From positions 1-36,841 of IMG/VR virus record IMGVR_UViG_3300011114_000676: a stretch of 36,841 nt of DNA; one strand, given 5' to 3'. How positions within the stretch are numbered: position 1 is the stretch's first letter; each line of letters opens with the position of its first letter. The translations under genes and the position numbers were made by a program. The DNA comes from a virus. Shown here piece after piece: positions 2,685 through 35,310 of the stretch. The notes under the pieces are model-generated. The model saw only the letters and a program-made list of their open reading frames with translations. It was not told the origin of the DNA and made no database searches.

Positions 2685-3808
2685 CAGTGCAAAATCCCAA
2701 GTGCGCGCGCGTCGTCTGGGCGCGCTTCGCCGACGAATTGGAATGTCGCCGTCGATCTGTTGCAGGAATTGCGACGATGCAACCACTCCTTCCCGCGTGT
2801 TTTCGACAGACCGACGACACGCGACGGCTCGCGAACCATCGCCCAAAGCGGCGAAGCGTTGCGATAACGGATCATCGCCGGGTGTGACGTAACACTGCGA
2901 AACGGCTTGCGTGTCGCGCTGTAGCAGGCAGCGACGAACTCTGACAGTTTGTTGCCTATGCCGACGCCTTGAAAGTCTGGCAGGCAAACGGTGCGATGCC
3001 CGCGCCAACCGGGAACGTGCTGATGCGGGAACGACAACACGGCAGCGAAGGCGACCGGGCGCGATGCGATGCTGGCGACGAAGCACGCTGCGCCTTTGTG
3101 CAGATCGGTGTTCAGATAGTGATGCTGCGCGAAAGCGTGCCAGATCGACGAATCACAGCGTTGGATTTCAAGCGCAACGTCTGGGCGTCGTCGATGCGAC
3201 CTCGCGGTGAAAGTGCCTGACGGCATTTCGATTATCCAATCTGGCTGCAGCCAGTCGATGATGTCGCTGTGACAAGATACAGCGACGAAGCGTTGCCCGC
3301 GCTGGCGCACGCTGCGCGCAATTGCGTGACTGCCGATCTGTGCGACTGTGCGATCGACGACCGAAGTGAATTCGTCGATCACTGTGATTGCGCGTTGTTC
3401 CGCCAATGCGCGCGCAACGTGAACGCGAAAGCGCTGGCCTGTTGACAGCACCGCGAATGGGCGCAGCCACGACGGCGGGCTACTGAACCCGACCGACGAT
3501 AACAGCGCGATGATCTCTTTGACCGACATCGCAGCGGGGAAATCGTCAATGATCGTGCGATCTGACGACCAAGCGAACGCGCCCTCGTCGATCACTGCGT
3601 CGCCGAACAGCGCGCGAGCGACGGTTGACTTGCCTGCGCCGCTGGGGCCAACGATCAAACCGACGTTCCACGACGACGGCAGATCAACGTCAAACGACCA
3701 GCGCTCGATGCTCGCTTCTGTCGGCGGCAGATCGAACATCGACGACGCCTGCAGCACGCGAGCGGTCTTTGTGATCGGCGATTTGACTACGAGATCAACG
3801 CGCGGCAT
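2684..3808 (-). CDS. ABC-type ATPase fused to a GNAT acetyltransferase-like domain (COG2401-like)
   Basis: The 374-residue protein combines two domains. An ABC ATPase has Walker A GPSGAGKST (54-62), signature LSTGQ (121-125) and Walker B ITVIDE (141-146), then SCHSDIIDWLQPDW (178-191). A GNAT-like domain (about 220-320) carries HRTVCLPDFQGVGIG (271-285), an acetyl-CoA-loop-like stretch, and VTSHPAMIRYR. This arrangement corresponds to COG2401, described as an ABC-type ATPase fused to a predicted acetyltransferase. No membrane segments are present, so it is not a transporter. Substrate is unknown. It overlaps the ParB-like gene by 22 bp and the small terminase by 4 bp, so all three are probably co-translated. 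An acyl modification of DNA or of a DNA-bound protein is a reasonable guess, not shown. Confidence 0.85.
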   Translation of the reverse strand: MPRVDLVVKSPITKTARVLQASSMFDLPPTEASIERWSFDVDLPSSWNVGLIVGPSGAGKSTVARALFGDAVIDEGAFAWSSDRTIIDDFPAAMSVKEIIALLSSVGFSSPPSWLRPFAVLSTGQRFRVHVARALAEQRAITVIDEFTSVVDRTVAQIGSHAIARSVRQRGQRFVAVSCHSDIIDWLQPDWIIEMPSGTFTARSHRRRPDVALEIQRCDSSIWHAFAQHHYLNTDLHKGAACFVASIASRPVAFAAVLSFPHQHVPGWRGHRTVCLPDFQGVGIGNKLSEFVAACYSATRKPFRSVTSHPAMIRYRNASPLWAMVREPSRVVGLSKTRGKEWLHRRNSCNRSTATFQFVGEARPDDARALGILH

Positions 3809-4359
3809 TCAATTCCTTCGTTGATCAGCTTGTCGAGCAGCGCGACTTGCGACGCTTCGTCTTTGCAGACGCACAGAACGTCCCATGTTTCGCCGATGGG
3901 CTGTTCGTCTGGCGACGGCAAGACGACATCGCCAAGCAGTTTCTGCAATTCGCGTTCGTCGAACCCCAGATCGCCCAACAGCGAATCGTCTGCCGCCTTG
4001 AGTTCGCGCAGCACTTCAGCCAGCGCAGCATCGTCCCAAGTCGCGATCTCGCCGATGCGGTTGTCAGCGAGGGCAAGCGCGTGCGCGTCTACTGGGTCGA
4101 GATCGAGCCAGCGCACAGGCACTTGTTCCAGCTTCAAGCGCTGCGCTGCTGCGAACCGCGTGTGCCCTGCGATGATCGTGCCGTCACGCTTGTTGGCGAC
4201 GATCGGGCTGCCCCAACCGAAACGCCTGATTGACTTGGCTACGTCTGCGATCGCGCTGGCGTTCTGTCGCGGGTTCTGCGCCCACGGGGTCAGGTCTGCG
4301 ACAGCGACCCAGACTGCGGCGGGGTCGGTCTGCGTCGTCGTCGGTGCGGGTGTCTCCAT
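3787..4359 (-). CDS. ParB-like domain protein
   Basis: The 190-residue protein has an N-terminal ParB/Srx-fold domain: VADLTPWAQNPRQN (19-32), IADVAKSIRRFGW (37-49), PIVANK, then the phosphate-binding-type motif GHTRFAAAQRL (65-75) and LALADNR (95-101). Phage ParB-like proteins of this sort often accompany DNA-modifying or nuclease-type partners; some members bind or hydrolyse nucleotides. The C-terminal half is acidic with no recognised domain. It is the first gene of the leftward unit. ATG 4357-4359 was chosen because the frame upstream lacks the domain and a promoter-like pair ends just before it, which would make the mRNA nearly leaderless. The coding start contains GGAGACACCC, the leader motif of the rightward genes. 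Confidence 0.85.
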   Translation of the reverse strand: METPAPTTTQTDPAAVWVAVADLTPWAQNPRQNASAIADVAKSIRRFGWGSPIVANKRDGTIIAGHTRFAAAQRLKLEQVPVRWLDLDPVDAHALALADNRIGEIATWDDAALAEVLRELKAADDSLLGDLGFDERELQKLLGDVVLPSPDEQPIGETWDVLCVCKDEASQVALLDKLINEGIECRALIS

Positions 4360-4366
4360 GCCCTGC

Positions 4367-4394
4367 AGTCTAGACCAGATCGCGAGGTTGGCAA
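4367..4394 (-). promoter_or_regulatory. Candidate leftward promoter for the ParB-terminase unit
   Basis: On the minus strand, TTGCCA (4394-4389) and TAGACT (4372-4367) are separated by 16 bp. These match 5/6 and 4/6 of the sigma-70 -35 and -10 consensus. Transcription would start at about 4360, so the message would begin at or within a base or two of the ATG of the ParB-like gene. Confidence 0.5.
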
Positions 4395-4482
4395 CCCATG
4401 TTGACGTTTTGGGCGATCTGCGACGGATTGCAGTTGTGATCATCGCGAGTTGCGCGCCGACCCCATCGAACAGCGCAAAACG

Positions 4483-4498
4483 GGGCAAAACGTGATCA
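4483..4498 (+). promoter_or_regulatory. Conserved 16-bp upstream element, copy 1
   Basis: GGGCAAAACGTGATCA occurs here and again at 5776-5791. In both places it ends exactly 85 bp before a TTGACAAC promoter. It includes a GTGATCA half-palindrome. Flanking bases also align without gaps (about 40 of 51 identical over 4448-4498 against 5741-5791, counted by eye). It could be an operator or activator site, or part of a duplicated small coding segment. Confidence 0.55.
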
Positions 4499-4583
4499 TG
4501 GACGAAAGCGCAACGATTTCGCGGATCGCGCTGTTCGTCGTCGTCGCGCTGACACCCTAACTGCGCAAAGTTGACAGCGACAG

Positions 4584-4612
4584 TTGACAACGCGCCTTGA
4601 CCTTGCGATGAT
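4584..4612 (+). promoter_or_regulatory. Rightward promoter 1 (TTGACA-17-GATGAT)
   Basis: A perfect -35 TTGACA (4584-4589) is followed, after 17 bp, by GATGAT (4607-4612; 4/6 to consensus). The predicted start at about 4619 lies 43 bp before the ATG at 4662. TTGAC occurs three times at 13-bp steps (4571, 4584, 4597), the middle one being the -35 box. Confidence 0.65.
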
Positions 4613-4661
4613 CTGTTCGTCGGCGGCACTTGACGCCAGAAGCCGACGCACAGGAGACACC

Positions 4662-5525
4662 ATGAGCAGCAACCCGACAAACGAAGGCATCAGCATCGCA
4701 GCCAGCATCATCAGCCAAGCCAAGGGCGACATCGGCACCGCCCGCCGCGTTGCCTGCGACGCGCACCTCTGGCTGTGCAGCGTTGACCCCAGCTACAAAG
4801 CCAGCGACGACAAGAAGCGCATCGCCGATCTGGAGGCGCAGGTTGTTGCGCTGTCGAAGGCGCAAGACGAGTTCGCCCCGGTCGCGACGATCGACAACAG
4901 CGCAGAACTCGCGTCGCTCAAGACGCAACACCAAGCGCTGCAGGTTGACGCGATCACGCTGATGCAAGAGCGCGACGGCGCGATCTTGACCGCCAACCTC
5001 GCCGCCAACGAGATCGAGCGCTTGACGGCAGACCGCGACAACGCCATCGCCAAGTACGATGCGCTGCTGGCCCACAGCGGCGACGCCAAGCAACTGCGCG
5101 ACGAACTGTTTGCCGCCCGCGCCGAACTGCAGCAGTTGCGCGCACTGGCACCCGACAAGGTTGCGCTGATGGCCGAAGTTGCTGGCCCGCTGCCGCTGCC
5201 CGCCGTGACGTTCGTCGAGCCCGTGGCGTCGTTCAGCGATGTCGTCAGCGGCAAGCACGGGCCCGCAGTCAGCAGCGACACCAAGTTTGTTGACGACCGC
5301 ACGGCAGACGAGATCGCCGCGCCCGCCGCGCTGGTGACGCCGCTCGACAAGCGCAACGCCCGCGTTGCTGCGATCGCCGCGACGATGGAACCCGCCAAGC
5401 CGATCAACGGCTACACCAACAACGCTGACCCCGTGCGCCCCAGCCACATCAGCGAGGGCGCGTGGGCTTCGATGTCGCCGATGATGCGCAAGTTCGCTGC
5501 CGCCAAGATGCAGCCCGCGAACTAG
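4662..5525 (+). CDS. Coiled-coil protein of unknown function (287 aa)
   Basis: I do not recognise the family. After a start MSSNPTNEGISIAASII, a long helical region (about residues 50-150) has heptad-like leucine and alanine spacing with many charged residues (DKKRIADLEAQVVAL, ERLTADRDNAIAKYDALL), typical of a coiled coil. A proline/alanine-rich linker then leads to a C-terminal segment with PSHISEGAWASMSPMMRKFAAAKM. That tail could be a short binding motif. It is the first gene rightward from the divergent region and the first target of promoter 4584-4612. The ATG follows CAGGAGACACC, the shared leader. A role as an early scaffold or DNA-organising protein is possible but not supported by any catalytic motif. 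Confidence 0.75.
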   Translation: MSSNPTNEGISIAASIISQAKGDIGTARRVACDAHLWLCSVDPSYKASDDKKRIADLEAQVVALSKAQDEFAPVATIDNSAELASLKTQHQALQVDAITLMQERDGAILTANLAANEIERLTADRDNAIAKYDALLAHSGDAKQLRDELFAARAELQQLRALAPDKVALMAEVAGPLPLPAVTFVEPVASFSDVVSGKHGPAVSSDTKFVDDRTADEIAAPAALVTPLDKRNARVAAIAATMEPAKPINGYTNNADPVRPSHISEGAWASMSPMMRKFAAAKMQPAN

Positions 5526-5540
5526 ACCCCAGCGCGACAA

Positions 5541-5587
5541 GCGCAGACGCCCGGTCGGCACCCGCTGATCGGGCGTTCTGCGTTTTG
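5541..5587 (+). terminator. Rho-independent terminator after the coiled-coil gene
   Basis: GCAGACGCCCG (5543-5553) pairs with CGGGCGTTCTGC (5570-5581) with one bulged T. GTTTTG follows at once. It lies 18 bp after the stop at 5525 and ends the first rightward block. Confidence 0.7.
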
Positions 5588-5775
5588 GGTCGCCAGCGTT
5601 GCGACGTTGACGCTGGGCGGGCGCAACGGGGCGCAGGCGCAGGTTGTGTCGTCGGGCAGCTTGCGCGCGTCTGGGCGCAACGTCGTGCGTCGTGCAGGTC
5701 GCAGGGCAGTTCGCAGCGAAAAGCGCCTGTGTCGTCGCGCAGTTAGACGCCGACCTCTGCAAAGCGCGCAAGAAC

Positions 5776-5791
5776 GGGCAAAACGTGATCA
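5776..5791 (+). promoter_or_regulatory. Conserved 16-bp upstream element, copy 2
   Basis: This is identical to 4483-4498 and again ends 85 bp before the -35 box of the next promoter. Here it extends into the perfect 10-bp palindrome CGTGATCACG (5784-5793), a plausible dimer-binding operator core. Confidence 0.55.
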
Positions 5792-5876
5792 CGACGCGAA
5801 GTGTTGTGCAATCGCGCAGTTGTGTCTGCGTCGTCGTCGCCACCCTGTCGATCTCTGCACAGTTTGACACTCGCGC

Positions 5877-5905
5877 TTGACAACGGTTGTTGACCACGTT
5901 AGATT
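5877..5905 (+). promoter_or_regulatory. Rightward promoter 2 (TTGACA-17-TAGATT)
   Basis: A perfect TTGACA (5877-5882) and TAGATT (5900-5905; 4/6) are separated by 17 bp. The start would be near 5912, 44 bp ahead of the DUF932 gene. TTGAC recurs at 5864 and 5890, giving the same 13-bp array as promoter 1. Confidence 0.7.
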
Positions 5906-5955
5906 GCACCTTGTCAGCAGCCAATCACGGCAAGACGCTGACGCAGGGAGACACC

Positions 5956-6969
5956 ATGCAGAACTTCATTTCATCGGGCGACACTTGGACGCTCGCAAAC
6001 AGTGTGAAAATCCCCGAAGGCGCAGACCCCGGCAGCGTGATCCGCAACGACCCAGTGCTGGGCAGCACGCTGCACCCAGTGCCGATGCAGCGGTTCAGCT
6101 TCAAGCACGGTGTCGTTGACGACGGCGCGCGCCGCATCGTTCGCGAGTTCGACGACTTTGCGCTAGGTGCCCCCGGCGATGTCGTCGGTGTGCGCCACGC
6201 GCTGATCCAGCCCGCGCAGATCGCTGACCTGATGTCGCGCCTGCACAAGGAGTTCGGCTTGAACTTCACGATGGCGGCGTTGCTCGACGAGCAAACGACG
6301 TTTATCACGCAGGCGCAGTTGGGCACCGTCGATCTGGGCGCGCTGCGCACCGTCGCCCGCGCCAAGCACGACACCAACGGGCGCGACCTGCTGTCGGGTT
6401 ACCTGACGTTCAGCGACAACTTCATCGGCAAGCGCACTGCCCAGATCGGCATGGCCCACACCCGCGCGATCTGCGAGAACACCAGCCGCGCTGCGATGAA
6501 AGAGGCGCGCAAGGCGAACATCGGCCAACCCATTCGCCACGTTGGCGATGTCAACGCGAAGCTGGACGCTTGGGGTAAGGCGATCGACACCCAGTTCGCC
6601 GACTTCAAGCGGTTCAGCGAATTCGCGCTGGTCGCCGCCGACACCCTGATCAGCCAGAACGACGCGCGCAGCATGATCGAGGTCTTGACCCCGGCGCGCG
6701 GCGACGACGCCAGCACGCGGTTGCAGAACAAGCGCGATGCGATCTTTAGCCTGTTCGACAACGGCATCGGCAACGCGGGCGCGACGGTCTGGGACTTGTA
6801 CAACGGCGTTACGGAGTACGCGAACTGGCACGCGGGCACGCGCGGCAACGCCGACAACGCGCTTGCCGCTCGCGAGGATCGCCTGACGAACCTGCTGTTC
6901 AACGGTCTGGGAGACTGGGTTGCCGAAGCTGAAACCCAACTGCGCCAGTACGTCAGCTTGGTCGGCTAG
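5956..6969 (+). CDS. DUF932-like phage/plasmid protein
   Basis: The 337-residue protein resembles the DUF932 (phage/plasmid-like, TIGR03299) family. It has an N-terminal segment MQRFSFKHGVVDD (about 37-49), then LSGYLTFSDNFIGKRTAQIGMAHTRAICENTSRAAM (about 145-180). The latter matches the family's central G-Y-L...R-CxNT pattern preceding a helical C-terminal half. The family is widespread in phages and plasmids; no biochemical activity is known to me. The ATG follows AGGGAGACACC. It has its own promoter (5877-5905), which suggests strong early expression. An ssDNA-annealing or anti-defence role has no support in the sequence. Confidence 0.72.
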   Translation: MQNFISSGDTWTLANSVKIPEGADPGSVIRNDPVLGSTLHPVPMQRFSFKHGVVDDGARRIVREFDDFALGAPGDVVGVRHALIQPAQIADLMSRLHKEFGLNFTMAALLDEQTTFITQAQLGTVDLGALRTVARAKHDTNGRDLLSGYLTFSDNFIGKRTAQIGMAHTRAICENTSRAAMKEARKANIGQPIRHVGDVNAKLDAWGKAIDTQFADFKRFSEFALVAADTLISQNDARSMIEVLTPARGDDASTRLQNKRDAIFSLFDNGIGNAGATVWDLYNGVTEYANWHAGTRGNADNALAAREDRLTNLLFNGLGDWVAEAETQLRQYVSLVG

Positions 6970-7060
6970 ACGATCGCAGCCTTGCCCCGGCAAGTGATGG
7001 CAACCCCATCGCTCGCCACGGGCGGCACGACGATCAACCCTGCCGACTTGGAGACACCCA

Positions 7061-7210
7061 ATGTTTGCTGACATCGAGACAACGATTCTGGCCTGCGACG
7101 ACAACGCAGCGATCTGCGACAAACTGAACCGCCCGCGCTTCGCCGCCGCTTGGCGCGCGATGGCGCAGCAGTTGCGCGACTTCGTTGCGCTGGGAGGTGC
7201 GTCGCTGTAA
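7061..7210 (+). CDS. Small hypothetical protein (49 aa)
   Basis: ATG 7061-7063 overlaps the end of the leader TTGGAGACACCCA, so the ribosome site is strong. The peptide MFADIETTILACDDNA... continues through a basic helix (NRPRFAAAWRAMAQQLRDFVAL) and stops at TAA 7208-7210. No family is recognised. The shared leader and the codon pattern are the evidence that it is real. The 91 bp before it hold only a 24-codon frame (6997-7071) that I do not call. Confidence 0.65.
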   Translation: MFADIETTILACDDNAAICDKLNRPRFAAAWRAMAQQLRDFVALGGASL

Positions 7211-7359
7211 CACGCAGCGCAGGAATGGTTGGGCAGTCAGGTCGTGGTGCCGCTTCGCATCGACCCCGAATTGCTGTTTGCCTGCGGGTTCGATTCCCGC
7301 GCCTGCGCCCGCCCGCTTCTGGGCTTTGACGCTGCTGCGGCAGCACCTTGGAGACACCC
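7211..7359 (+). other. Intergenic region holding a tRNA-like element
   Basis: There is no supported gene in these 149 bp. The stretch carries the tRNA-like element (7217-7308), a GCTGC.GGCAGC inverted repeat near 7331-7346 and the leader of the next gene. Confidence 0.5.
7217..7308 (+). ncRNA. tRNA-like element (T-arm and acceptor stem, non-canonical D/anticodon part)
   Basis: A perfect tRNA T-arm, GCGGG (7284-7288), TTCGATT loop, CCCGC (7296-7300), is followed directly by GCCTGCGC. This pairs with GCGCAGG (7217-7223) as a 7-bp acceptor-like stem. The span of about 90 nt fits a class II tRNA. Between them GGTCG/CGACC (7240-7244 with 7260-7264) makes a further hairpin, but I cannot fit a normal D-arm or anticodon loop and no CCA is encoded. 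It may be a degenerate or structured tRNA mimic, or the T-arm end of a tRNA captured as an attachment core. Confidence 0.4.
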
Positions 7360-7695
7360 ATGCCAGATCGAACCATCTACCTCGACCACCAAAACGATCG
7401 TTGCGCCGGCAACGTCAACGTCAACGCTCACGGCGGGCACGCAGACCCGATCTGCGTCCACATCACCCACTATGCCGTCAGTGGGGTATCCACCACGGTT
7501 GGACTGCGCTTGAGCGTCGCGCAGGCTCGCACGATCGCCGCGCTGATCGAACGCGCCTGCGACGACCACGACGCCAAGACGCTGCCGCCCAACGCCCGCC
7601 GCATCGACGACCAGCGCAGCAACGTCGATCTGGCCGCGCTGGCTGCGACGGTCGCAGGGTTCAACCCCGACGCCATTGAGGACGCGCGCCGCTGA
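7360..7695 (+). CDS. Hypothetical protein (111 aa)
   Basis: I do not recognise the family. The N-terminal half is rich in short beta-type segments with histidines (MPDRTIYLDHQ, HGGHADPICVHITHY), followed by VGLRLSVAQARTIAALIERA (about 49-68). The C-terminal part (NVDLAALAATVAGFNPDAIEDARR) is helical. A pattern of a beta sheet, a SVAQA-type helix and then a helical tail is common in small phage regulators, but nothing specific can be assigned. ATG 7360 overlaps the end of TTGGAGACACCCA. The stop overlaps the start of the next small gene (TGATG), indicating coupled translation. Confidence 0.65.
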   Translation: MPDRTIYLDHQNDRCAGNVNVNAHGGHADPICVHITHYAVSGVSTTVGLRLSVAQARTIAALIERACDDHDAKTLPPNARRIDDQRSNVDLAALAATVAGFNPDAIEDARR

Positions 7696-7868
7696 TGCGC
7701 CGACCTTGGCTGCGCTGCCGTCGTCGTCGCCCTGTCTGCCCGCTGCGGTGGCCCTCGCGCTGCCCAGCGGTGCAGGCAGACGATGCGTTCGTCGCGTGGC
7801 TCGACGACATCAAGGCGCGTCGTCTAGCTGCGCTGACGCCTGACGAGATCGACGCGCTGCCGTTTTGA
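7695..7868 (+). CDS. Small hypothetical protein (57 aa)
   Basis: The frame starts at ATG 7695 overlapping the previous stop and ends at TGA 7866-7868. The N-terminus is strongly basic (RPWLRCRRRRPVC). The C-terminal half reads AFVAWLDDIKARRLAALTPDEIDALPF, a clean amphipathic pattern that resembles a real protein end. It finishes 3 bp before promoter 3. The function is unknown. Confidence 0.55.
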   Translation: MRRPWLRCRRRRPVCPLRWPSRCPAVQADDAFVAWLDDIKARRLAALTPDEIDALPF

Positions 7869-7871
7869 CGG

Positions 7872-7899
7872 TTGACAACCGCGCCCAGTGGGCAACAAT
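7872..7899 (+). promoter_or_regulatory. Rightward promoter 3 (TTGACA-16-AACAAT)
   Basis: TTGACA (7872-7877) and AACAAT (7894-7899; 4/6) are 16 bp apart. The -10 context GGGCAACAATG is shared exactly with promoter 4 (10603-10630). Transcription should start at about 7905-7907, at the foot of the hairpin 7904-7951 and 200 nt ahead of the replication gene. Confidence 0.65.
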
Positions 7900-7903
7900 G
7901 GCG

Positions 7904-7951
7904 ATGCACTCTGCCCGCCGTTGGGTGTCTCCTGCGGCGCGGCGAGTGCAT
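7904..7951 (+). ncRNA. 5' hairpin with a loop complementary to the phage's shared start leader (candidate riboregulator)
   Basis: The stem is built from ATGCACTC/GAGTGCAT (7904-7911 with 7944-7951), GCC/GGC (7913-7915 with 7941-7943) and CGCCG/CGGCG (7916-7920 with 7935-7939), with single bulges at 7912 and 7940. That gives 16 base pairs closing a 14-nt loop, TTGGGTGTCTCCTG (7921-7934). The loop is the reverse complement of CAGGAGACACCCAA. Start leaders matching it are at 4651-4661 (11 nt), 5947-5955 (9), 7050-7061 (12), 7350-7360 (11), 8960-8970 (11 with one G-U), 10654-10661 (8) and 11561-11569 (9), and on the minus strand over the ParB start at 4348-4357 (10). It may be a trans-acting RNA or the first domain of the leader of the next gene; no terminator follows. 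Confidence 0.55.
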
Positions 7952-8012
7952 ACAAGACGCGATCTCGCCGCTGAACCCGGCACGCGCGCAGGTGGTATCC
8001 GTGACGACTTCA

Positions 8013-8096
8013 CCAACCCAGACTAGCCCGCGATCGCCAGCACAGCGCACCACCCGTTGCTGTTGGGGTTCACTTTCGCGGGTTAGTCTGGGTTGG
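8013..8096 (+). repeat. 21-bp inverted repeat in the leader of the replication initiator gene
   Basis: Arm 8013-8033 and arm 8076-8096 are complementary at 20 of 21 positions; the one difference is a G-T pair. The 42-nt interval contains a smaller CAGCA...TGCTG pairing. The right arm ends directly against the GCGAGG ribosome site of the gene starting at 8108. In RNA this would be a very stable leader hairpin that could control translation. In DNA it could be a cruciform or a dimeric binding site, as at replication origins. No T-run follows, so it is not a standard terminator. Confidence 0.75.
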
Positions 8097-8107
8097 CGAG
8101 GCGCACG

Positions 8108-8980
8108 ATGCCGAAACCCACACAACAAGTAGCCCATCGGCGCATCGCTGCTGACAGGCTGCAAGCCTACGAAGGGCGCGAACACCGTTGTCTGCGCGAT
8201 GTCTTGTTCTGGCTGATCGCTGGCCCAGACGCGACGCGCACCGGACTGCGCTACTGCCGCCCAACGAACATCGCACACGAACTGGGTTGGTCGGTCGGCA
8301 ACGTCGAAGCTGCGCTTGACCGCTTACAGGCAGACGGCGTGATTGTGCGTTCGCCAGAACAGCGCAGCGTGCTGTGTCTCGACGCGCTGGCGTGCGGCGT
8401 GCCGACGAACGACGATCACCGCGTGTCACTCCGACGCGACATCGAGCGTCACGCGCCTTGCGTCTGTGCTACGAAAGCGCTTGAAATGATTGGCGCGAAC
8501 CCTGACACAAAGGGGCACACAAAGAGCGACAGGGTGTCCGACATCAGTGTGCAGAGAACAGTGATCAGTGATCAGACTGTTGCGGCTGCGCCGCCTGTCG
8601 TCGAGCCGACAGCGACAGCCAGCGAACAACTGACTCTGACGCTCAAGACGCCCAAGCCCAAGCGCGAACCCGATCCGAAGTGGGCGCAAGCTGAAATCGT
8701 GCGCGGCGTCTGGAACGAGTTTGCAGCGCTCAACCCGAACTGGGCGCACTCCAGCAAACTGACGATCGCCACGGTCAACGTGCTGGCAGCAGCGCTGCGA
8801 CGACTGACCGACTACGACGGCGTGTTCGCGCTGTTCAAGGCGATCGCTGACGACCCATGGTTCGGTGGCGACAGGCGATCGACACCGTGGGACGTTGCCC
8901 AGTTCTGCGCGACAGCGAACCTTGACAAGGCGATTGCGCAATCGCGACGCACGACGTTTGGAGGCACCCATGCAGCGTGA
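8108..8980 (+). CDS. Replication initiator / helicase-loader-like protein with N-terminal winged helix
   Basis: The 290-residue protein has an N-terminal winged-helix-like domain (about residues 5-95): LRDVLFWLIA, CRPTNIAHELGWSVGNVEAALDRLQADGVIVR. A polar linker (about 115-190, rich in T, P, K) separates it from a C-terminal domain with WNEFAALNPNWAHSSKL and FKAIADDPWFGGDRRSTPWDVAQFCATANLDKAI. The latter resembles the C-terminal repeat of phage replisome organisers and helicase loaders. The next gene is a DnaB-like helicase (11-bp overlap), as in initiator-helicase pairs. ATG 8108 (GCGAGG, 7-nt spacing) is preferred over an in-frame TTG at 8093 that lies inside the inverted repeat. Short repeats in the linker (8558-8575) could mark an internal origin. 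Confidence 0.72.
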   Translation: MPKPTQQVAHRRIAADRLQAYEGREHRCLRDVLFWLIAGPDATRTGLRYCRPTNIAHELGWSVGNVEAALDRLQADGVIVRSPEQRSVLCLDALACGVPTNDDHRVSLRRDIERHAPCVCATKALEMIGANPDTKGHTKSDRVSDISVQRTVISDQTVAAAPPVVEPTATASEQLTLTLKTPKPKREPDPKWAQAEIVRGVWNEFAALNPNWAHSSKLTIATVNVLAAALRRLTDYDGVFALFKAIADDPWFGGDRRSTPWDVAQFCATANLDKAIAQSRRTTFGGTHAA

Positions 8981-10397
8981 CCCAGAACCCGGTGGCTTTG
9001 ACGCTGCCAGCCCGGTCAAGAGCGACCCGCGCGTACCGCCTGCAGCGCTGGCGTTTGAGGCGGCGATCATCGGCGCGTGTCTGTTCGACGCAGACGCTTG
9101 CGCGATTGCGCGATTGCACATGGAGCCCAACGACTGCTACGACCAGCGGCACAAGGTCGCGCTGCAAGCTGCGTTCGCTGTCGCAGATCGCGGCACGTTT
9201 GCTGATGCTGTCGCAGCGCACGAATGGATCGTCGAGCGCGGGCAGGGCGATCTGGTCACGTTGGGCTATCTGACGCAGCTTGCGCTGGCACCGGGCAGCA
9301 CCAGCGCGATCGAACACTACGCCCGCAAGGTACGCCGCTGCCGCGGCATGCGCGACGCGCTCGACGCTGCTGCGCGTCTGCTTGCGGAAGGCTTTGACCC
9401 GCGCTGCGACCCCGACGCCTTTGATGCGCTGTGGGGCAACGTCGAGAGGCACATGCGCGCGTTTGCCCAGCGCAGCGTGGGCGGCACCGAAACGATGCTG
9501 CAGGAGCGGTTGGCTGCGCTGTACGAACGATTCACAGCTGGCGTCGTCTTGCCGCGCGCGATCTCGACAGGTCTGGCTGATCTCGATCGTCTGCTGGGTG
9601 GCGGCATCAGACCGGGGCAGCTTGTCACGGTCGCAGGCAGACCGGGGCACGGCAAGACCTCGCTTGCGCTGGGCATGGTGCGCGCTGCCTGCATCGCAGG
9701 GCACAACGTCGCGTTTGTGTCGCTCGAAATGACCGGCGACGAACTGCTGGCGCGGGTGGCGTCTGCGCTGGTGCGCTTCGATGTCACGCGCGAAGCGCCG
9801 ACCGTCAGTGCGACACTCGCGATCCAGACTGTCGCGGCCACGCTGTCTGACTGGCGATGGCGCACGTTTGACACGCCCAACAGCGATTATCAGCGCATCG
9901 AGCGCTGGGCGACTGGGTTGCACGCCAGCGACCCGATTGATCTGCTGGTCGTGGACAACCTGCAAGACATCGCGTTGTCGCCTTATGCGCGGGTGCGGCA
10001 TGAGGAACTGGACGCGACGGTTCGCAAACTCAAACAGCTTGCCAAGACGCTGCGGTGCCCGGTGCTGATGCTCGCGCAGGCGACACGCGAGATCGACGAA
10101 CGCGGCGCGGCTGGCTACTACCGTCAAGCTGATGTCGCCGACACCAAAGCGATCGAGGGCGCGAGCGATGTGTTGCTGTTCACTTGGCAGCCGCCGACAG
10201 GCGACACGACGTTGCCGCAGGGCTACGCCGAACTGCAGATCGTCAAGAACCGGGCGGGCTACGGTGGTGTGATCCGCGCCGACTACGATGCGCCAACACA
10301 GTTGTTTCGCAACACGTTTGAGCCTGCGATCAACCGCCGCACACAAAGCGGCAGCAACGGTCGGGTGCCGACGCCCGCCAACGGGAACCGCCGATGA
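8970..10397 (+). CDS. dnaB: Replicative DNA helicase, DnaB-like
   Basis: The protein unwinds the replication fork 5'-3' as a hexamer. Its 475 residues have the DnaB N-terminal domain (about 25-125, EAAIIGACLFDADACA) and a RecA-like C-terminal domain. That domain has an ISTGLADLDRLLGGG entry (198-212), Walker A GRPGHGKTS (223-231), SLEMTGDEL (251-259), Walker B LLVVDNLQ (325-332) and a late LAQATREIDERG motif. The length and motif order fit standard phage DnaB helicases. The ATG follows TTTGGAGGCACCC, a one-base variant of the shared leader, and overlaps the initiator gene by 11 bp. Confidence 0.93.
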   Translation: MQRDPEPGGFDAASPVKSDPRVPPAALAFEAAIIGACLFDADACAIARLHMEPNDCYDQRHKVALQAAFAVADRGTFADAVAAHEWIVERGQGDLVTLGYLTQLALAPGSTSAIEHYARKVRRCRGMRDALDAAARLLAEGFDPRCDPDAFDALWGNVERHMRAFAQRSVGGTETMLQERLAALYERFTAGVVLPRAISTGLADLDRLLGGGIRPGQLVTVAGRPGHGKTSLALGMVRAACIAGHNVAFVSLEMTGDELLARVASALVRFDVTREAPTVSATLAIQTVAATLSDWRWRTFDTPNSDYQRIERWATGLHASDPIDLLVVDNLQDIALSPYARVRHEELDATVRKLKQLAKTLRCPVLMLAQATREIDERGAAGYYRQADVADTKAIEGASDVLLFTWQPPTGDTTLPQGYAELQIVKNRAGYGGVIRADYDAPTQLFRNTFEPAINRRTQSGSNGRVPTPANGNRR

Positions 10398-10597
10398 ACG
10401 TTACGATCACAATCAGTTGCGACGATGGGCAGACCCGACAGATTGCGGGCGCGCTGCGCCACGGGGTCACGTTCCAGCGCGTCGTCGTTGTGCTGGTGCG
10501 ACTGGCTGCGCTCGCGTTGCAGCCCGTTGGGCAACGCTGGGCGGCGACGCACGCACGCAAACCGTTGACATCACACGTTGACGCGCTGCTTGACTAA
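10394..10597 (+). CDS. Small hypothetical protein (67 aa)
   Basis: The start ATG overlaps the helicase stop (ATGA). The protein has an N-terminal beta stretch (MNVTITISCDDGQ), then FQRVVVVLVRLAALALQPV (about 27-45), a hydrophobic helix that might touch membrane, and an amphipathic C-terminus ending VDALLD. No family is recognised. Its last codons contain TTGAC steps at 10565, 10578 and 10590 that run into promoter 4. Confidence 0.6.
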   Translation: MNVTITISCDDGQTRQIAGALRHGVTFQRVVVVLVRLAALALQPVGQRWAATHARKPLTSHVDALLD

Positions 10598-10602
10598 CTT
10601 GC

Positions 10603-10630
10603 TTGACAACGCCGCAAAATGGGCAACAAT
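10603..10630 (+). promoter_or_regulatory. Rightward promoter 4 (TTGACA-16-AACAAT)
   Basis: TTGACA (10603-10608) and AACAAT (10625-10630) are spaced 16 bp, with the same GGGCAACAATG context as promoter 3. The start is expected near 10637, 28 bp before the RecE-like gene. Upstream TTGAC motifs at 10565, 10578 and 10590 give steps of 13, 12 and 13 bp, but the first three are in coding sequence. Confidence 0.65.
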
Positions 10631-10664
10631 GCAAGCAGGGCACGACGCCCGACGGAGACACACA

Positions 10665-11540
10665 GTGAACGACGTTGACTACTTTGCGCTTGAAGCGCTA
10701 TCGCAGAGCGGGGCGAAAGACCTGCTGATTTCGCCAGCGCTGTACCGCGCCAACCGTGACGCGCCCAGCAGCGACAACCCCGCCTTTGCGCTGGGTCGTC
10801 TGTTGCATGCGCTGGTGCTGACGCCTGACGCTGTGCCGTCGCTCTTCTCGACTGGGCCCGACCTGTCGAAACTGTGCGACCCCAAGACCGGGCAGCCGTA
10901 CAAGGTGCCTGCGATGTCGTCGGCGGGCAAAGACTTGATCGCCAAGTGGACGGCAGAGAACCCCGGCGTGCAGGTTGTGCCCGCAGCGGACTGGCAGAAC
11001 GCGCTTGAAATGTCGTGGGCGCTGCTCGACAGCACGATGCCCACGACGACGCTGACGCTGCGCCAGTTGCTGCAGCAGCAGACGGTGTTGACCGAAATCG
11101 CCGTCGTCTGGACTGACGAAGCGACCGGCGCGCAGTGCAAAGCGAAACCTGATCTGCTGGTCGTGCTGCCCGACGGTCGCGCTGTGTGCGTCGATCTCAA
11201 GACGACGGCAGCAGAGTTCAGCGCGGCGTCACTGTCGCGCGCGGCAGTCAGCTACGGCTACCACCGGCAGGCTGCACACTACTTGGCAGCGCTCGCGAAC
11301 CAAGGGCAGAACGACTGCGAGTTCTGGTTTGCGTTCGTCGGCAAGAGCAACCCGCACGAAGTCGCGTGGCTCAAGCCCAGCGATGCGATGCTGGCGGCTG
11401 GCGCGGCTGAAATGCTGGCGGCAAAAACGATCTACGCTGCTTGCGTGCAGGCGAACAGTTGGCCCAGCGCACAGGCTGCTGGCCTGCTGGGGCACGATCT
11501 CGATCTGCCGCGCTGGTACAAGACCGACGACGGCGAGTGA
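10665..11540 (+). CDS. RecE-like PD-(D/E)XK exonuclease
   Basis: This is a 5'-3' dsDNA exonuclease of the RecE/exodeoxyribonuclease VIII type (DUF3799-like), which makes 3' single strands for annealing. The 291-residue protein has GRLLHAL (44-50), with a histidine as in the lambda-exonuclease-like superfamily, and a nuclease core with KPDLL (161-165, D163) and VDLKT (176-180, D177 and K179). YGYHRQAAHYL (197-207) forms the QxxxY-type motif. GTG 10665 was chosen because GGAGACACACA precedes it and the upstream frame is inside another promoter. It is followed by a RecT-like gene, the usual two-gene recombination pair. Confidence 0.88.
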   Translation: MNDVDYFALEALSQSGAKDLLISPALYRANRDAPSSDNPAFALGRLLHALVLTPDAVPSLFSTGPDLSKLCDPKTGQPYKVPAMSSAGKDLIAKWTAENPGVQVVPAADWQNALEMSWALLDSTMPTTTLTLRQLLQQQTVLTEIAVVWTDEATGAQCKAKPDLLVVLPDGRAVCVDLKTTAAEFSAASLSRAAVSYGYHRQAAHYLAALANQGQNDCEFWFAFVGKSNPHEVAWLKPSDAMLAAGAAEMLAAKTIYAACVQANSWPSAQAAGLLGHDLDLPRWYKTDDGE

Positions 11541-11573
11541 CACAACCGCGCTGCGGCGCACAGGAGACAGGCG

Positions 11574-12542
11574 ATGTCAGAGCAAATCACAACCAAGACG
11601 ACGGAGCCGCGCAGCTTGGCGCAGTTCGTCGGGCAAGCGCTGGCCAACCCAGCGACGCGCGAACAGATCGCCACGGGGTTCGCACCTTGGCTTGACCGCG
11701 ACCAGTTCGCAGGGCAGTGCGCGATCGTCGCCGCTGACCCTGCGATGGCAGGTGCAGACTGGGGCTCGCTGCTGCGTGCGCTGTTCAAGGTTGGCCAATG
11801 GGGGTTGCTCCCCGGCCCAGCGCGCCACGTTTCACTGATCGTCGCCAAAGACGGCAGCGTGCAAGTGCGGCCAGAGTTTCGCGGCTGGCAGTACGTTTGG
11901 CAGATCGCAGGTTGGGAAGTCACTGCGCACCTCGTTCACTTCGGCGACGACTTCGCGATCGACAACATCGGCGCAGACGAGTTCACGGTTGCCAAGCACA
12001 GCTATGACCCATTTGGCGACCGGGTGCTGACCGACAAGACGACGCGCGGCGGGTACGTCAAGGGCGTGTCGCGGGTGACAGGCGAAGTGCGCTATCGGTT
12101 TGTGCCCATCGCCAAGATACTGTCGAACCGCGCCAAAGCGCAGACGCAAGCGGTCTGGGGCGCGCACTTCGCGGAAATGGCGCAGAAAACGCTGGTGCAT
12201 GTGGCGATGTCGCGCGGTTGGTTCCCGACCCCGGCAGCGATCGCGTCGGGTCTGGCTGAAATGGCAGACGCCGACCACGAAGCTGCGGGCGTCGTGCTGC
12301 AGCGGTCTGGCAGCGCTACCCCGGTCGCCACGCGCGCCAGTCAGATCGCTGCGAGGATCGCCGCCAGCGCTGCCCCAGCGCCCGCCAGCGCCCCGCAAAC
12401 GCCGCAGACGACTAACGACGCGCCTGCGGCTGAAACTCGCGTTGTGGGGCAACCTGACGCGCCCAGCGACGAAGCCGACGACGTTGACGATCTGCCGTGG
12501 AACTACGCTGCCGACAAGCAGGCTGATGGGGGCCTGCTGTGA
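11574..12542 (+). CDS. RecT-like single-strand annealing protein
   Basis: RecT anneals complementary single strands left by RecE and coats ssDNA. The 322-residue protein has the family core: an N-terminal helical start (RSLAQFVGQALANP), LLRALFKVGQWGLLPG, then VRPEFRGWQYVWQIAG and YVKGVSRVTGEVRYRF, followed by a Q-W-M-like region. The C-terminal 60 residues are A/P/D-rich and low-complexity, ending VDDLPWNYAADKQADGGLL. The DDLPW stretch resembles the acidic tail of SSB proteins that recruit partners. ATG 11574 has CAGGAGACA in front. Confidence 0.88.
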   Translation: MSEQITTKTTEPRSLAQFVGQALANPATREQIATGFAPWLDRDQFAGQCAIVAADPAMAGADWGSLLRALFKVGQWGLLPGPARHVSLIVAKDGSVQVRPEFRGWQYVWQIAGWEVTAHLVHFGDDFAIDNIGADEFTVAKHSYDPFGDRVLTDKTTRGGYVKGVSRVTGEVRYRFVPIAKILSNRAKAQTQAVWGAHFAEMAQKTLVHVAMSRGWFPTPAAIASGLAEMADADHEAAGVVLQRSGSATPVATRASQIAARIAASAAPAPASAPQTPQTTNDAPAAETRVVGQPDAPSDEADDVDDLPWNYAADKQADGGLL

Positions 12543-34804: not shown

Positions 34805-35310
34805 CAGGAGTCCACGCGAAAGGTGATGGACGCGATCAGTTGCCCGCTGTCGATCAGCGGTGTCGTCGCGCCGCCCAGCGATGCCAGACCGCCGCCGTGT
34901 TCGGCTTTGCGCGCCCGCGCCGCTTTGGTGGCGTCTGCCAGCGGTGGGGCGATGCCCGCTTGGATCGTGCGCTTGCAGTCGTTGCTGGCGATCACGCCGA
35001 TGCGCCGCGCTGCTGTCTCTGCGTCCTCGCCGCCTGTGACCCGCTGCGCTGCGTCTTTGATCATCGCTTCGTATGCGGGGCGCTTGGCGTCGAACGTCGA
35101 GCGCATGAAGCTGCGTTCGGGTATCTTGTCGGTGCCGAATTCGTGAATCGCGGCAAGCTGCGGCAGCGTGATCGGTTGGTCGTCGCCGTGGTGCGCGCCT
35201 GCGTCGTCGTGAACGCCAACAGTGACGACTGTGCGCGACAGCTTCGCCCATTCGCGTTCAAGGCGATCAAGCACGCGGCGATCGTCGCGAACGGTCGTCT
35301 GCTGGCTCAC
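34804..35310 (-). CDS. HK97 gp10-like connector / tail completion protein
   Basis: The 168-residue protein has EREWAKLSRTVVTVGVHDDAGAHHGDDQPITLPQLAAIHEFGTDKIPERSFMRSTFDAKRPAYEAMIKDAA. The 'I/V-H-E-F-G....IP.R.F.R..F' motif is a hallmark of gp10-like and phage virion morphogenesis proteins. The end LIDSGQLIASITFRVDS is the usual 'L.dTG.L..SI...V' motif. GTG 35310 is coupled to the previous stop (GTGA). Confidence 0.85.
   Translation of the reverse strand: MSQQTTVRDDRRVLDRLEREWAKLSRTVVTVGVHDDAGAHHGDDQPITLPQLAAIHEFGTDKIPERSFMRSTFDAKRPAYEAMIKDAAQRVTGGEDAETAARRIGVIASNDCKRTIQAGIAPPLADATKAARARKAEHGGGLASLGGATTPLIDSGQLIASITFRVDS

Follow-up and report, generated by a model that had tools for sequence, protein, structure and literature searches.

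The window, by which we mean the whole virus record of 36,841 bases analysed here, carries tail-sheath and baseplate genes on its minus strand and an early/replication set on its plus strand, and within it lies a hairpin (7904-7951) whose loop reads antisense to the starts of many of its genes. The question raised by this locus is what such a hairpin does, and an earlier note had proposed that it is a phage riboregulator. The observation itself is confirmed, as the hairpin is antisense to a common start leader. On the plus strand it folds with -32.1 kcal/mol (z = -4.8 compared to shuffled sequences), and its loop is, as had been claimed, the exact reverse complement of CAGGAGACACCCAA, which contains the extended Shine-Dalgarno leader. 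The stem had been described as having 16 bp and two single bulges; the bulges are there, but the length has to be corrected by counting the closing U-G (Table 1). Similarly, the expected exposed loop is found in so far as a stable hairpin is predicted, but it is only partly open, with a predicted inner helix of 2-3 bp (GGG/UCC) and an opening cost of ~7 kcal/mol for the whole loop and ~4.7 kcal/mol for its core.

Table 1. Positions of the hairpin, its surroundings and its candidate target sites in the window (energies refer to pairing with the loop).
Feature	Positions	Strand	Basis or remark
GGAGACACCC, within the first codons of the ParB-like gene (ATG at 4359)	4348..4357	-	weaker candidate site
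Start leader CAGGAGACACC of gene 4662	4651..4661	+	11 nt pair with the loop, -22.0 kcal/mol
Start leader GGAGACACC of DUF932 gene 5956	5947..5955	+	-19.4 kcal/mol
Start leader GGAGACACCCAA of gene 7061	7050..7061	+	12 nt pair, -23.5 kcal/mol
Start leader GGAGACACCCA of gene 7360	7350..7360	+	-22.8 kcal/mol
Sigma-70-like promoter TTGACA-16-AACAAT, before the hairpin	7872..7899	+	consensus match
Anti-leader hairpin	7904..7951	+	17-bp stem, two single bulges; expected at the transcript 5' end
Loop TTGGGTGTCTCCTG, antisense to the common start leader	7921..7934	+	complementarity, pairing energy, folding
Inverted repeat, 24 bp (92%), 42-nt spacer	8010..8099	+	second structure of the leader, between hairpin and helicase-loader start
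DnaD-like helicase loader / winged-helix gene, first after the hairpin	8108..8980	+	predicted to be on the hairpin's transcript
Start leader GGAGGCACCCA of DnaB-like helicase gene 8970	8960..8970	+	one G-U, -22.2 kcal/mol
DnaB-like replicative helicase gene	8970..10397	+	PF03796, 4.5e-38
Start leader GGAGACAC of PDDEXK nuclease gene 10665	10654..10661	+	-16.3 kcal/mol
Start leader CAGGAGACA of RecT-like gene 11574	11561..11569	+	-16.6 kcal/mol

On the plus strand the core GGAGACA occurs solely at six start leaders (4653, 5947, 7050, 7350, 10654, 11563), with the variant GGAGGCA, which forms one G-U with the loop, at 8960, and its two occurrences on the minus strand are the hairpin itself and the ParB start. 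That seven rightward start leaders match the loop over 8-12 nt is borne out, the longest contiguous pairings being 8-12 nt. The match claimed for the ParB-like start is likewise present, but it is not a start leader, as the site lies within the first codons after the ATG. Accordingly, the suggestion that one RNA tunes both the early set and the packaging operon is supported for the leader pairing and weak for packaging, where the match is a single site within the coding start of ParB. Between the ParB and the terminase gene, the minus strand also contains an ORF (2687-3808) with ATPase (ABC/AAA) and acetyltransferase-like domain matches. Over the seven leaders, pairing with the loop amounts to -16 to -23.5 kcal/mol compared to -6 to -9 kcal/mol for the ribosomal anti-SD, and after opening of both partners the net binding is -7.0 to -13.2 kcal/mol for five leaders and ~-4.6 kcal/mol for two. 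When both strands of the window are considered, there are 348 hairpins with stems of comparable length, and the longest antisense match to the leaders is 11 nt for this loop and 7 nt for the runner-up; permuting the leader columns gave a match of at least 11 nt in 4% of the trials (P=0.04), which is the cruder test. The mean pairing energy over the seven leaders (-20.2 kcal/mol, runner-up -12.8 kcal/mol) was reached in 0/300 leader permutations. Moreover, an unbiased search for start-enriched 8-mers with an antisense copy in a strong loop returned the hairpin 7904-7951 as by far the strongest match of the window.

The claim that promoter 7872-7899 places the hairpin at the 5' end of an RNA also holds at the level of sequence, since the predicted RNA start is at ~7905, at the foot of the stem. 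The promoter agrees with the consensus at 10/12 positions (five such sites were seen, 0.8 expected) and is nearly identical to promoter 10603-10630, which drives a leader-bearing gene. The leader holding the hairpin is long and structured (z -6.9) and lies ahead of the helicase loader, and the dnaB-like gene's own leader is one candidate target of the hairpin on the same predicted transcript. The inverted repeat in this leader abuts the helicase-loader start and may mask its Shine-Dalgarno or be a replication element. An intrinsic terminator was rejected as identity of the hairpin, because it is not among the terminator-like sites of 4000-12000 and ACAAGACGCG follows after 7951. Just upstream of a target leader, at 7218-7310, there is a tRNA-like element with the acceptor GCGCAGG/CCTGCGC and the T-arm CGGGTTCGATTCCCG, but without a proper anticodon and with no Rfam tRNA match.

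Relatives sharing the early region of the window were found neither by DNA blast against phages, nor by protein scans with DnaB, DUF932, TerL and ParB (an alignment served as one of the TerL and ParB queries), nor by a leader-pattern scan; only fragments or distant phages without the early region were returned. As there is no close relative of this region, covariation was examined in other phages. Distant relatives (L296, also L291, L295 and L298) have a different start-associated leader, GGAGCGACACC(ATG), with 17 copies in L296. Between convergent genes of L296, near 693-747, lies a strong hairpin in which 8 nt on the minus strand are antisense. We take that hairpin as suggestive at most, since a match of this length is close to what chance gives and the place resembles a terminator region. 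Repeated start leaders are also present in the uncultured phages L306 (CAACGGAG, 9 copies) and L338 (GGAGGGCAAA, 10 copies).

The cluster K mycobacteriophages offer a much closer parallel. Their SAS comprises 13 nt, GGGATAGGAGCCC, and is located at 11-19 gene starts (PMC3203893); its role has been given as unknown from 2011 onwards (PMC3203893), also in later work (PMC11373665, PMC12699233). The leaders of the window are of the SAS type as well, with a repeated GGAG motif, all seven on the plus strand and all at early gene starts, but their motif is GGAGACACCC and not that of cluster K. Judged from these sequences, the window start leader is an analogue of the cluster K SAS with a distinct motif. 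K1 genomes were described to contain one reverse-oriented SAS copy that is unlinked to any gene start (Pope et al., 2011; PMC3203893), and in Anaya and other K1 phages we find this copy to be the loop of a strong hairpin. K1, K4 and K5 phages have one hairpin each presenting CTCCTATCC, which is antisense to SAS, at three genomic sites: in Adephagia (K1) at 58661-58713 between genes 92 and 93, in K4 flanked by an HNH and the primase gene, and in K5 ~50 nt ahead of the gene for the terminase small subunit. The loop is identical in 18/18 hairpins examined from K1, K4 and K5, whereas the stems and surroundings vary. Aligned K1 sequences show no variation in the loop columns, while the stem pairs vary, with 91.8% of the stem cells still paired and three pairs changed on both sides. 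The stem covariation is 0.147 compared to 0.115 for shuffled alignments, a value reached by 0/500 shuffles. The loop pairs with SAS at -16.6 to -22.5 kcal/mol (-9.4 kcal/mol for the anti-SD), and longest-match tests on single K genomes gave P values of 0.003 (OkiRoe) and 0.02 (Adephagia), while the K4 hairpin was missed by the stem filter of the script because of a 3-nt bulge. Thus, a stable hairpin with a loop antisense over at least 9 nt to the start leader of its own phage is found in the window, K1, K4 and K5, and this independently located analogue in cluster K makes the antisense relation between loop and leader much more than a one-genome coincidence.

For Adephagia, published RNA-seq is reported to place the start of late transcription of the plus strand in the gap between genes 92 and 93 (PMC11373665), a study which neither reports the hairpin nor tests its antisense role. 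Most SAS genes are located in the early right arm, and the would-be targets of the hairpin are mostly early. This suggests that, close to its 5' end, the late transcript would include an RNA that is antisense to the starts of early genes. The K1 gap furthermore has a promoter-like conserved block. In the K1 late leader, e.g., that of Anaya (JF704106, ~59720-59930), the conserved blocks CTTTTAGACT and GCACA-ACTG-TGTGCC and a first hairpin precede the anti-SAS hairpin, making this region a candidate late promoter and leader.

Not all phages with such leaders have the hairpin. Of the hairpins examined from K1, K4 and K5, all have a complementary loop apart from those of two or three K1-type phages. 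SirPhilip and Oscar no longer have the loop but kept SAS, and the altered loop of Amgine is equivocal, as its pairing with SAS amounts to ~-12 kcal/mol for the loop bases alone and reaches -21 kcal/mol once the closing bases are opened. In the K2, K3, K6 and K7 phages examined, SAS is present and the anti-SAS hairpin absent, and Boilgate (K8) has neither. Reverse SAS copies of ZoeJ (K2) and Aminay (K7) were considered as hairpins and rejected, as they look like ordinary leftward gene starts, with CAT directly before the motif. Terminator-like hairpins with a sense SAS-like motif in the loop are located near SAS sites in OkiRoe (KJ567042, ~35004-35048) and Aminay (MH509442, ~37139-37169). In the Microbacterium EF phages (AnnaSerena), which have a third SAS type, a hairpin had been forecast beforehand and none was there, which refutes this prediction. 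The lack of the hairpin in K2, K3, K6 and K7, the loss of the loop and the failure in EF together mean that SAS does not need this partner.

Among the systems known so far, the SAS of cluster K (PMC3203893) and of the Microbacterium EF phages (PMC7302621) is closest to the window with respect to the leader, since all of them have a long conserved Shine-Dalgarno-containing leader at many non-structural gene starts, and its conservation exceeds what 16S pairing explains (PMC3203893, PMC7302621). The EF phages differ in lacking the antisense hairpin, and in neither of the two papers is a reverse copy presented as hairpin loop or antisense RNA. With respect to the hairpin, the C4 RNA of P1/P7 is similar: this phage RNA is encoded in a leader, has loops that complement a ribosome-binding region, and blocks translation (PMC12197685); C4 has one target gene (ant), whereas the single loop of the window matches seven leaders. 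One hairpin loop directed against the Shine-Dalgarno region of several mRNAs, as proposed here, is also used by RNAIII of Staphylococcus aureus and CyaR of E. coli (PMC2837412). However, these are host RNAs with short general anti-SD loops, and the loop of the window has 14 nt matched to a phage-specific leader. Compared to C4, RNAIII and CyaR, the distinctive feature of the window therefore appears to be that one loop fits a leader which the phage itself repeats across many genes. C4 is an Rfam family, and membership of the hairpin in this family was rejected, as there was no match to the C4 covariance model at the gathering or a relaxed threshold. Rfam families gave no match for the hairpin of the window or of cluster K either, and a weak match to a human lncRNA region is noise.

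The riboregulator reading of the earlier note can thus be upheld for the pairing and the 5' position and is strengthened by the analogue in cluster K. From sequence, fold, complementarity, position and the cluster K design we infer that the RNA would be produced, would pair in the cell and would act in trans as a repressor. We give about even chances to a leader-encoded, multi-target anti-start RNA that would work like C4 RNA, RNAIII or CyaR. The 5' leader of the helicase-loader/helicase transcript would begin with a stem-loop antisense to the extended Shine-Dalgarno leader of at least seven early genes, and the loop would act either while on the leader or as a processed fragment. It would form a kissing contact with a start leader, the duplex would extend across GGAG and exclude the ribosome, and translation of the leader genes would drop. 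With the dnaB-like gene on the hairpin's own transcript among the targets, the whole start-leader regulon would be tuned down as the replication genes switch on.

Several other explanations have to be weighed against this anti-start RNA. The hairpin could act as a stem for 5' stabilisation or processing, take part in replication or late control, or bind a protein, with its likeness to the leader due to chance or common ancestry with a start site. Many phages have repeated start leaders without such a hairpin and the longest-match test gives only P=0.04, both of which fit this idea, but the energy test (0/300) does not, and in cluster K the relation recurs although the leader there is unrelated and the loop stays constant despite changing stems, so that we consider it unlikely. 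The regulation could also run in the reverse direction, with start-leader mRNAs or their ribosomes opening or blocking the hairpin leader, whereby the early mRNA level would gate the helicase operon here and the late operon in cluster K. Such a role would suit a hairpin within a long structured leader before the helicase loader, and also the K1 hairpin, which is among the conserved leader structures at the late transcript start. Since the next start codon is ~155 nt away from the hairpin, no linking switch structure was found, and the K4 and K5 hairpins precede different genes, this direction seems quite improbable to us.

The remaining two explanations concern the strand and the coding potential. 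As the palindrome folds on both strands and the minus strand loop is a perfect copy of the leader, the opposite strand might be the active one, with ribosomes or a leader-binding protein drawn to it as a decoy. The promoter, though, lies on the plus strand, no minus strand promoter or gene fits, and the late transcription reported from the Adephagia gap is also that of the plus strand (PMC11373665), which makes a decoy very unlikely. Finally, an ATG at 7904, close to the predicted transcript start, would allow for a leaderless gene of 40 codons (ORF 7904-8026) with an incidental hairpin. Its codon-position G+C of 0.72/0.65/0.60 is unlike that of the neighbouring genes, which have 0.44-0.52 at the second and 0.70-0.86 at the third position; a coding gene was therefore rejected here, and we regard this reading as extremely improbable.

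A broader but rather doubtful possibility is that a start leader used across the phage genome arose separately in unrelated actinophage-like lineages, in each case along with an antisense hairpin placed in the leader of some later transcript, whose single loop would shut off translation of the early set at the developmental switch. Such a multi-target RNA switch is not described in the papers cited here, and the SAS of cluster K would thereby acquire a function. The window has led to a concrete and testable partner of SAS, namely the antisense hairpin loop in the late-start interval of Adephagia, whose genetics are tractable in the laboratory. A single phage RNA would, if this is true, govern a set of genes via their common start sequence, and the phage could switch stages without a protein repressor.
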